Source of the DNA: Candidatus Mediterraneibacter avicola
Lineage (GTDB): Bacteria; Bacillota; Clostridia; Lachnospirales; Lachnospiraceae
Assembly (NCBI GenBank): GCA_019115385.1
Contig: DXDR01000030.1
Coordinates: forward strand, 1 to 50,441
DNA length: 50,441 nt
Direction of reading: 5' to 3'
The translations under genes and the position numbers were made by a program. The notes under the pieces are model-generated. The model was not told the origin of the DNA. It made no database searches and worked only from the letters and a program-made list of their open reading frames with translations. Numbering within the stretch: the first letter of the stretch is position 1; each line of letters begins with the position of its first letter. Positions 1-2,557 of this stretch are shown one piece after another.

Positions 1-2
1 AT

Positions 3-605
3 GAGATTTTTTCTCTTCAAGAATTATTAGAAGTGCTGAAATGGAAGGTTAGTGATGAGATAAAAATCCAACTTATGTCCTTTACAAATCAGGCAATTTC
101 TATAATCAACGAGCACTATTCAACTAAAGTATGTATATACATTCTTGAAAATAATTTTTTGAAATCCGATTTACCGGAATTGCTGCAGTCATATGATAAT
201 TGGGATAAAGAAATGCAGGCTAAGATATATGCTTTAGCATTAGCATATATCTCCGACATAATAGCGGATCCCCAGAATGTCTCTTCTCAATTGAAGAACA
301 GATTGCTGTACTCTAGGGAACTGAATATTGAGAGTAGAATTGACTTGCTGATAGCGATGCTGTCCGACTTAGACATGGAATATGTAAAGCCTGTACTGGC
401 GGAATGGGGGTTCGATGATTATATTAAAATTTTCGATAACCGCAGCCGGCCTAGATTTGAAATCAGCCCGATTAGTAAGAAAATCCTGGAGGCATTTAAA
501 AAGAAGAGATGGATTCAAAATTATGAAGAGGATGGGAAAAAGCCCGGGCTTTATAAAATTATTAGAAGAAAAGTTCCTAAAGAATTACCAAAAGAATTAT
601 TGTAG
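3..605 (+). CDS. C-terminal part of an unrecognised protein (possibly a YobI-like NTPase tail)
   Basis: The reading frame is open from the left edge (base 3) to a stop at 603-605, so the gene starts outside the window and only about 200 C-terminal residues are visible. The part seen is mostly helical and lacks membrane segments. It ends in a small winged-helix-like stretch (ISPISKKILEAFKKKRWI, then a charged turn and GLYKIIRRK) and a Lys/Arg/Pro-rich tail. I do not recognise it with certainty. The pattern of short helices closing with a winged helix recalls the C-terminus of large YobI-like P-loop NTPases found in mobile and defence islands, but no NTPase motif lies in this fragment, so that is a guess. 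Base composition is clearly more AT-rich than the rest of the window, and the segment abuts a broken comEC, which suggests cargo of an inserted element. Confidence 0.6.
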   Translation, partial: EIFSLQELLEVLKWKVSDEIKIQLMSFTNQAISIINEHYSTKVCIYILENNFLKSDLPELLQSYDNWDKEMQAKIYALALAYISDIIADPQNVSSQLKNRLLYSRELNIESRIDLLIAMLSDLDMEYVKPVLAEWGFDDYIKIFDNRSRPRFEISPISKKILEAFKKKRWIQNYEEDGKKPGLYKIIRRKVPKELPKELL

Positions 606-672
606 CAATGCATTTGATTACGCCATTGATAATCAGAAAGGCGTACATTATCTACATATGTAAACGGTGTTA

Positions 673-758
673 AAATAGCTATTTTACGCTGGCTTTACAT
701 GGAACACATTATCAAAAATAGATGTGTATTGTGTGTAAAGCCTGTAAAATGGCTATTT
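673..758. repeat. Near-perfect inverted repeat, 673-699 against 734-758
   Basis: The left arm AAATAGCTATTTTAC + GCT + GGCTTTACA (673-699) and the reverse complement of the right arm AAATAGCCATTTTAC + A + GGCTTTACA (734-758) differ by one substitution and a two-base length difference. The arms are separated by 34 bases. The left arm also contains a perfect 16-base palindrome (671-686). The repeat lies between the stop of the foreign-looking reading frame and the point where comEC homology resumes. Paired recombinase or transposase binding sites near an element end would look like this. A long RNA hairpin is the other possibility. Confidence 0.75.
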
Positions 759-773
759 CCACTTTTTAAGTGG
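759..773. repeat. Perfect 6-bp hairpin next to the comEC junction
   Basis: CCACTT (759-764), loop TTT, AAGTGG (768-773). It sits 11 bases before the codon where comEC similarity resumes and directly follows the larger inverted repeat. Subterminal hairpins occur at the ends of some single-strand transposons, and short inverted repeats occur at recombinase core sites, but no transposase or integrase gene is visible to decide between them. Confidence 0.5.
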
Positions 774-2557
774 TGCCGAAAATTATCTCCGGGCTCCATA
801 TGTCTTTTATCGGATCCGGCATATACGGCATGCTCAGAAAGGCCGGACTGTCTTTTGCCGTCGCCGGGCTGTGCGGCGGCGGGATCCTGATCTTTTATAC
901 ACTGATGATAGGAGGGAGCGTATCAGCCGTACGCGCCCTGCTCATGTTTCTTATAAGGGCCGGGGCAGATGTGGCAGGAAGAGATTATGATCTGCCTACC
1001 AGTTTGGCTGCAGCGGCTGCCGTTACGGGAGCGTGGCAGCCGCTGTACCTGATGGACGCTGCGTATCAGCTCTCTTATGGGGCCATACTGGGGATCGCGC
1101 TTTTGACCCCTCTGTTTGAAGATATGATGGCCGGACAGAAAGCTGCCCGGCCGGATTCCTCTAAAAAGACAAAAAAGAAAGGCATAAAAGGGAAGATCGC
1201 AGGGAGAACCGCGGCGCTGGCGCAGCAGCTGACTGCGGGGGTTGCGGCCAGTCTGTCGGTCAGTATTTTTCTGATGGGTCCCCTTCTGTATTTTTATTTT
1301 GAAATCCCGCCATATTCTACGGTGCTGAATCTTGCAGTGATACCGGCCATGTCTCTGGTCATGGGAGCCGGTCTCCTCGGCTCCGTTCTTACTCTTTTGT
1401 GGGACGGCCTGGGAGGAATGGTTTTGACGATCTGTAAGGCGGTGCTTGCAGCATATGACGGTATATGCGCCACGGCAGGATATTTGCCGGGCAGCCGGTT
1501 TGTGACGGGACAGCCGTCTCCCCTGTGGCTGGCTGTGTATTATTGCGGATTGTTCCTGGTGTATCTGGTTTACCGGTGCATCAGGCATTGCCGGAAAAAA
1601 AGAGCTGCGGAGGGTATTCCAGAACCGGAAGAGCGCTCGTGGGCAGCAAGGCTCCCCGGAGCCGTACTGCTGTGTTTTGCAGCCTTTATGGCTGCGGCCT
1701 GCCGGTGGGACAGCTGCCATATGAACGGGATTCAGATTACCGTGCTGGATGTGGGACAGGGAGACGGCATCTTTGTCCGAAGTTGTTCCGGTAAGTCATA
1801 TTTTGTGGACGGCGGGAGCAGTGACGTCTCTTCTCCGGGGACATACAGAATCGAGCCGTTTCTTCTGGCGTCCGGCGCCGGAAGCCTGGAGTATGTATTT
1901 CTAACACACGGAGATGCGGATCATATAAACGGCATGGAAGAAATGCTGGAAGACCAGGAACTGGGCATTCGTATCAAAAATCTTGTCCTTCCTCCAAAAC
2001 CCTATATTGATGAAAAATTGTCCCGAATAGCGGGTATCGCCAGAAAGAACGGAACCCGGGTGATAACAATGGAACCCGGAGACAGTATCTGCGAGGAGGG
2101 CACAGGTCAGAAATTCGGCCTGACCTGTCTTGCGCCGGACCATTCTCTCCCTGACGGCACAGAAGGCAATGCGGCTTCCATGGTCCTTGAACTGTCATAT
2201 GGGGATTTTTCCATGCTGCTCACGGGAGATCTGGAGAAAGATGGAGAAAAGAGTCTGGTGGAAAGCGGGAACCTTAAACAGTGTACGGTTCTGAAGGCTG
2301 CCCATCACGGTTCCGGCTCTTCCGGGACGGAGGACTTTCTTGATATTGTCAGACCCTCCTGTGCGATCATATCTGCGGGCAGGGACAACCGGTACGGCCA
2401 TCCCCACCCTGAGACACTGGAACGGCTGGAAAAAGCGGGGTGTACGGTGTACTCCACCCAGGACTTCGGAGCCGTGTCTGTATGGACGGACGGAAGCCGG
2501 GTAAAGATCACCGGGTTCCATTCCCCGCCCGCGGATGGGAGGAAGAAGGGATTTTAA
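770..2557 (+). pseudogene. comEC: ComEC DNA-uptake channel, N-terminally truncated
   Basis: ComEC forms the inner-membrane channel that takes up single-stranded DNA in transformation. The visible 595 codons begin in the conserved ISGLH motif of the competence (membrane) domain. They continue through several hydrophobic helices (about residues 10-300) and end in a metallo-beta-lactamase-like domain with LDVGQGDG, THGDADHINGM, TGDLEKDGE, AAHHGSGSSG and the YGHPHP motif. Intact ComEC proteins are about 700-800 residues, so the N-terminal soluble domain and the first membrane helices, roughly 200 residues, are missing. Similarity begins at about 785, right after AT-rich foreign-looking DNA. The first possible starts (GTG at 770 and 773) have no ribosome-binding site. 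The remaining frame has no internal stop, which suggests a recent disruption or some residual use. Natural transformation through this gene is probably lost. Confidence 0.8.

Follow-up and report, generated by a model that had tools for sequence, protein, structure and literature searches.

The stretch of DNA analysed here (the window) is 50,441 bp long and represents the complete contig C10 of a 98-contig draft genome, G000; only about 785 bp of it belong to the element described below. The left end of the window is occupied by an open reading frame on the forward strand (positions 3–605 in the ORF list, 200 aa), which is truncated by the contig start, encodes the C-terminal part of a cargo protein with no family assignment, and is followed by about 180 bp of non-coding DNA. 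Within the latter, cross-genome identity delimits a conserved, non-coding and partly self-complementary right terminus of the element (644–786, forward strand). The C-terminal part of comEC comes next on the same strand (785–2557). Its frame is open from 785 to the stop at 2557, and it comprises the remainder of the Competence domain (PF03772, profile positions 28–266) and a metallo-beta-lactamase domain (PF00753) with a THGDADH motif. The profile search showed that PF03772 is entered at profile position 28, which corresponds to window position 785, and that the N-terminal part of the domain is absent. The G+C content amounts to 34.6% left of the break and 54.9% in the comEC half, vs. 48.8% for the whole window. 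The G+C contrast and the truncated domain match confirm the view of the initial annotation that comEC is split at its ISGLH motif by foreign-looking DNA. The breakpoint, which it had placed at about 785, where comEC does begin, can be refined to the dinucleotide AT at 785–786 (forward strand), i.e., bases 1 and 2 of the Ile codon of LAISGLH. This dinucleotide is common to the left and right junctions and is regarded as the crossover point; the window junction reads ..GAAAATT-AT-CTCCGGGCTCCATATG. The first candidate in-frame start, GTG at 770, is supplied by the terminus of the element (770–784, forward strand; ORF list) and the next one, ATG at 800, lies already within comEC; by eye, no Shine-Dalgarno-like sequence was seen before either of them. 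To the right of comEC we read the ORFs as holA, lepA, hemW, hrcA, and grpE, and their order is identical in a named relative (L133).

The missing N-terminal half of comEC, which the initial annotation proposed to seek, was found in the same genome. DUF4131, the N-terminal domain of ComEC, gave a single match in G000, on contig C15, in an ORF of 209 aa that ends with ..LYQKNGIGHILAI-NST*. Genes read as comEA-like, as a two-component system, and as coding for a lipoprotein come before this ORF. Past ..CTGGCT-AT the C15 sequence switches to AAATAGTACC.. and continues for about 6 kb at 31% G+C up to the contig end, so that the N half adjoins element DNA at the point complementary to the break in the window. 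This left arm encodes a 1305-aa protein with matches to SIR2_2 (6e-22), AAA_22 (2e-9), and TPR, and a second protein, truncated by the contig end, with a match to SIR2_2 (8e-6); PADLOC returned a weak hit for the first (PDC-S20, 1.7e-4) and none for the second. Joined across AT, the comEC flanks read HILAISGLHM in frame. The flanks share TAT in G000, the first T by chance, and AT only in G308 and G402. C15 and C10 thus appear to border a single insertion. When 1600 bp of the right arm of G402 were compared with the contigs of G000, only window positions 1–133 were matched, which indicates that the continuation of the element is either missing from the G000 assembly or different.

Recurrence of the split was surveyed in 58 genomes of the genus, which we infer to be Mediterraneibacter, by the continuity of the PF03772 match at the break point. 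The match was unbroken in 46 genomes and began at profile position 25–30 (C half) in 10; G449 contained the N half only, and in G442 PF03772 gave no match. Among the 11 split genomes, seven carry the termini seen in G000, referred to here as type A (AAATAGTAC.. on the left, ..GAAAATT on the right, AT core), and four carry the termini of GG-core prophages. Type A was detected at comEC on both sides in G000, G308, and G402, on the right side in G398 and G418, and on the left side in G449 and G409. In these seven genomes and in one Blautia the termini occur at the identical nucleotide and in the identical orientation, and the AT core was found in every type A junction seen. The right terminus was present in five of the 58 genomes including G000, with 83–95% identity in the other four. 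The right junction was also found in five named records (three Mediterraneibacter, one Lachnospiraceae, and a new host, Candidatus Blautia faecavium), all of which, except for the Blautia, we took as G308, G402, G418, and G398 themselves. Among 397 genomes drawn evenly from the family, the right terminus was recovered from G000 and G308, while G079 and G101 matched over approximately 30–36 bp only. The arms of type A reach contig ends in all seven genomes and in the Blautia record, and no complete copy was seen. The fixed nucleotide and orientation, together with the unbroken gene in most of the genus, support the earlier proposal of a site-specific element with comEC as its attachment site.

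One of the split genomes, G409, presents a separate picture. Its left junction is of type A; the right one, on contig C69 (L116) with about 1.25 kb of DNA left of the comEC C half, reads ..GAATCATG-GCTATCTCCGG and is not of type A. It retains one extra codon and provides an in-frame ATG. Either an additional kind of element or a mixed bin would account for it.

The second group of insertions at the same motif consists of prophages. Their junctions lie 6 nt downstream of AT, at a GG core that forms bases 1 and 2 of the Gly codon of ISGLH, and their termini (TGTT.. on the left, ..GACG on the right) fall into type B (G407, G450, G391) and type C (G440, G201). Both comEC halves were found on one contig around inserts of about 74 kb in G407, 56 kb in G450, and 56 kb in G440, and around a 68-kb insert in G391, which belongs to another genus. 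Three of the four GG-type prophages in the genus were hence seen whole, with large serine recombinases; for the fourth, G426, the right side only was available (0.9 kb of type C sequence, with no recombinase in it). The PHROG matches of the G407 prophage include terminase, portal, head, and tape-measure proteins. Resolvase and Recombinase domains occur together in three of its proteins, and two of these overlap head to tail. All three recur in G450 and G391 at 84–96% identity and in G440 and G201 at 56–70%. Of the G407 recombinases, two have counterparts in the Lachnospiraceae phage NatCom_40364 (PV036410, Ca. Heliusvirales) at 95% and 97% identity; the record of this phage starts with a sequence that reads as comEC adjoining the type B right end. 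The third large serine recombinase of G407 has a DUF6551 protein and several other genes as neighbours (L097, 6538–11357), in a region that is conserved both in Ca. Heliusvirales phages and in the other prophages of comEC. In its termini, type A differs from the B/C prophages, with an AT core and different ends. None of the 11 split genomes contained both kinds of termini, seven and four cases being too few to show exclusion.

Counts outside the genus are to be read as at least the values given, with 30 genomes of the family draw, picked for two matches or weak scores, re-examined. In two of the genomes, G197 and G160 (L121–L124), both comEC halves stop at contig ends within ISGLH, and in G170 this holds for the N half only. 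The contig ends of G197 and G160 look as if the assembly graph had branched at the recombination core, or as if a prophage had been trimmed out.

The attacked stretch is among the most conserved parts of comEC. Conservation was computed on 30 of the 46 unbroken genes. Of the ten 30-nt windows with the highest conservation (among 1775), nine start between -12 and +3 nt from the Ile codon; the 30-nt window that has the AT core at its centre takes rank 35. Both AT and GG are invariant in all 30 intact genes, with variation in third codon bases. A recombinase that requires two central bases and conserved surroundings would be expected to gain a broad host range at this site.

Based on these data, we consider it very probable that the window starts in the right end of a type A element integrated site-specifically in comEC at the LAISGLH codons. 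According to this model, a recombinase would have exchanged strands at AT of the Ile codon, leaving the N-terminal half of comEC beyond the opposite end of the element, on C15 of G000. The split would cost the host its DNA uptake, a loss that is likely from the anatomy of the gene. The initial annotation had suggested this loss to be a side effect, but in published work insertions of this kind are argued to be of benefit to the element. The element would benefit, as a host unable to take up DNA could not replace it via homologous recombination, and its cargo may shield the host from phages.

Another possibility is that comEC is regulated instead of lost, the element acting as a reversible switch (active lysogeny) that is excised precisely when competence is needed. 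The comK prophage of Listeria has been put forward as a case of active lysogeny. The precise 2-bp junctions and the consistent reading frame of the empty site agree with such a switch, and restoration of comEC through excision of the element is possible. The C halves are also well preserved: nine of the 10 were examined (G418 was left out, its contig being too short) and all nine are open, with 530–591 aa from the His codon and the HGDxDH motif kept. Moreover, pN/pS to the nearest intact relative was 0.323 for split genes vs. 0.313 for intact ones (n = 29, after removal of one short gene from 30; p = 0.58, Mann-Whitney). This gives no sign of relaxed selection, in a test that is weak because most pairs are close to saturation at synonymous sites. 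The split C halves do not look like old pseudogenes, and both recent and reversible insertion would fit. The halves of G197 and G160 that end in the motif could arise where integrated and excised forms occur side by side; yet the same contig ends could stem from prophage trimming, no excised form was seen, and the open frames are equally explained by recent insertion. We regard the switch as possible, though rather doubtful.

Recent movement of type A is indicated by the comparison of its arms with the genes around them. Over 785 bp, G000 and G402 have right arms of 98.6% identity, despite comEC genes of which the C halves align in pieces only, at 67–80%, and the N halves in one piece at 71%. 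In blastn the last 179 bp of the right arm of Ca. Blautia faecavium were 99.4% identical to G402, and the comEC C halves of the two could not be aligned. We thus concluded that type A moved recently, as its right arm is nearly unchanged between such divergent comEC genes and its terminus occurs in a Blautia comEC. The initial annotation had also called the event recent; this holds mainly on account of the near-identical right arm in a distant species, whereas the open frame it had relied on proves little alone, being open in all nine split C halves read.

The conserved part of the right end is short. About 145 bp of the right terminus are shared by six hosts and the DNA further inside is of four kinds: one common to G000 and G402, one common to G308 and G418, and one each in G398 and Blautia. 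At the left end, about 110 bp of G000 align with G409 or G449 at 72–75%; the left ends of G402 and G308 gave no blastn match to G000 and agree with it in short motifs only. The ORF at 3–605 of the window has a counterpart of 510 aa in G402, for which 17 relatives were found, a single one of them named in its source (“hypothetical protein”); the ORF and its G402 counterpart gave only weak Pfam matches and no PHROG. In G402 the left arm codes for a 634-aa protein and for proteins of HTH and, by reading, NUDIX-like type. It further codes for an adenylosuccinate synthetase (PF00709, 9e-153; phrog_1211, 7e-110) and for two proteins with weak matches, one to TIR effectors and one to VakA. Two cargo proteins compared by sequence with the PDB gave no match. 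The cargo of type A seems defence-like and exchangeable, with a predicted anti-phage role. Part of the same arm (G402:C128, L115, 6052–9437) forms a cluster resembling nucleotide metabolism, with the NUDIX-like protein, the TIR-effector-like end, the adenylosuccinate synthetase, and a kinase-like protein, which is possibly an unrecognised defence operon.

The cargo bears on whether type A is itself a prophage of the B/C kind, with phage genes and tandem large serine recombinases in its unassembled middle. Prophages of types B and C occupy the identical motif with three large serine recombinases, Phi1207.3 is likewise inserted in comEC at a GA core (excerpts of PMC4260502), and a hidden middle is compatible with the lack of any complete type A copy. 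The adenylosuccinate synthetase of G402 matches a phage family, phrog_1211, although it matches the general PF00709 too. On the other hand, no phage structural gene was recognised in the left-arm ORFs (about 6 kb in G000 and 9 kb in G402), and three cargo proteins had no match in PHROGs. Window positions 1–787 matched neither the plasmid collection nor any of 50,697 phage records. A search of 2.9 million viral contigs with three type A end patterns and the predicted pattern of a circle junction found none; patterns for the left and the right end do match known type A loci, and the search was a weak one, as the type C junction pattern matched just one contig. We consider the prophage interpretation unlikely. 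We also put forward, tentatively and with low confidence, that type A represents a new, non-phage family of site-specific elements with interchangeable anti-phage genes, sitting on the attachment site of Ca. Heliusvirales-type phages. If true, the type A crossover, 6 nt from that of the phages, should destroy the phage attB; the host would be protected twice, by the occupied docking site and by the defence genes, and the element would be protected by the shutdown of DNA uptake.

The enzyme that would integrate type A was sought in the assembled arms. No type A recombinase was found in about 6 kb on the left and 0.8 kb on the right in G000, and the available parts of the right arms of G000 (0.8 kb) and G402 (2.2 kb) contain no tandem serine recombinases. 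The integrase or transposase gene that the initial annotation had suggested looking for beside the comEC insertion was accordingly not found in the assembled element DNA. Elsewhere in the genomes, PF07508 was present in five of the seven type A genomes (absent from G398 and G409), with at most 41% identity between genomes, and PF00589 matches occurred in all seven. When 30 PF00589 matches were clustered at >38% identity, no tyrosine recombinase common to all seven type A genomes was found among the matches listed. One group, in six genomes, was judged a chromosomal gene from its uniformity (89–94% identity), and a second, also in six genomes, was set aside for its conserved chromosomal neighbourhood. 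In G409 a tyrosine recombinase lies about 0.45 kb inside the type A left end (C93, L117, 266–2276), next to a gene that we take to encode an IS91-like transposase; the pair was judged a nested insertion.

A common core of 2 bp is typical of serine recombinases, and the chances that the type A enzyme is serine-type are in our estimation about even. The AT core is palindromic, yet the orientation of insertion was constant in all cases seen, and a simple serine integrase would not be expected to show this constancy. Each terminus of G000 contains one exact TGTGTWTTGTGT repeat, and the left end a second copy with two mismatches; these repeats could be sites for another kind of recombinase.

Transposition by a Tn554-like (TnpABC) or Tn7-like element was also considered. 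An 11-kb contig of G402 (C34, L174) is Tn554-like and encodes three tyrosine recombinases, a DUF6262 protein and, after these, an nSTAND3 protein as cargo; it represents a further mobile element of defence-like content in a host of type A. Its 563-aa recombinase was, however, unmatched in G308, G398, G418, and G449, i.e., in four of the other six type A genomes, and marginal in G000 (4e-5) and G409 (4e-4), and no TnpA/TnpB/TnpC set occurs in the type A arms seen, the middle of the element being unassembled. Tn7-like elements duplicate 5 bp of the target, whereas the junctions of G402 and G308 share 2 bp. Even with defence-carrying elements described in comM of Acinetobacter (excerpts of PMC11472951), transposition of this kind is very improbable. 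A chimeric contig or another artefact of assembly or binning, as a 98-contig draft, a window that begins at a contig end, and arms on separate contigs might suggest, has a negligible probability because the right junction is identical to the base in the assemblies of other species and of another genus, and the N half carries the complementary left junction.

Site-specific integration of type A into comEC, as favoured here, has wider implications. In Lachnospiraceae, one and the same stretch of comEC is used by elements with at least three sets of termini and two crossover dinucleotides, which suggests that phages and a defence-carrying element may compete for one attachment site. The gain to elements from disabling transformation, argued mainly for pathogens, would extend to gut commensals.

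The use of comEC as an attachment site is already known. Phi1207.3 is a 52-kb prophage in streptococcal comEC with a duplicated GA dinucleotide and three serine recombinases, two of them in tandem at the right end (excerpts of PMC4260502 and PMC12587576). Insertion of Phi1207.3/Tn1207.3, Phi10394.4, and Tn1207.1 splits streptococcal comEC (excerpts of PMC12587576 and PMC8321556), and for Tn1207.1 in pneumococcal comEC an advantage to the element has been argued (PMC8321556, in the part available). In the available part of PMC12955456, comEC of Piscirickettsia salmonis is interrupted by transposable elements. Other transformation genes are disrupted by elements as well, namely comK (Listeria), comYC, comFA, comM, and comGA, and theory holds that such elements escape removal by transformation (excerpts of PMC4774983, PMC12637031, and PMC7029219). 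In Acinetobacter, islands in comM carry CBASS and Zorya defence systems, and a Tn7-like element has been named there (PMC11472951, as excerpted). The literature searched, which reaches few subscription papers or preprints, yielded no comEC insertion in Lachnospiraceae and no paper on the NatCom phages; the main text of PMC9226167, as far as it was available, mentions neither comEC, an integration site, attB, a serine recombinase, an integrase, nor competence.

Type A resembles Phi1207.3 in its insertion inside comEC at a fixed dinucleotide and differs from it in the dinucleotide itself, AT vs. GA. Its arms, from an element that is incomplete, contain defence-like genes; neither a phage structural gene nor a recombinase belonging to type A was recognised in them, unlike in Phi1207.3. 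The Ca. Heliusvirales phage NatCom_40364 is like the prophage of G407, and both are unlike type A in their GG core, other termini, and phage genes. Insertion is site-specific in type A as in comK, comYC, comFA, comM, and comGA; the genes and the elements are others. The comM islands of Acinetobacter share with type A the defence cargo in a transformation gene, but the gene is a different one and type A shares 2 bp only. What is new here is the use of another dinucleotide in the LAISGLH codons, together with the defence-like cargo and the convergence of several kinds of element on one site.
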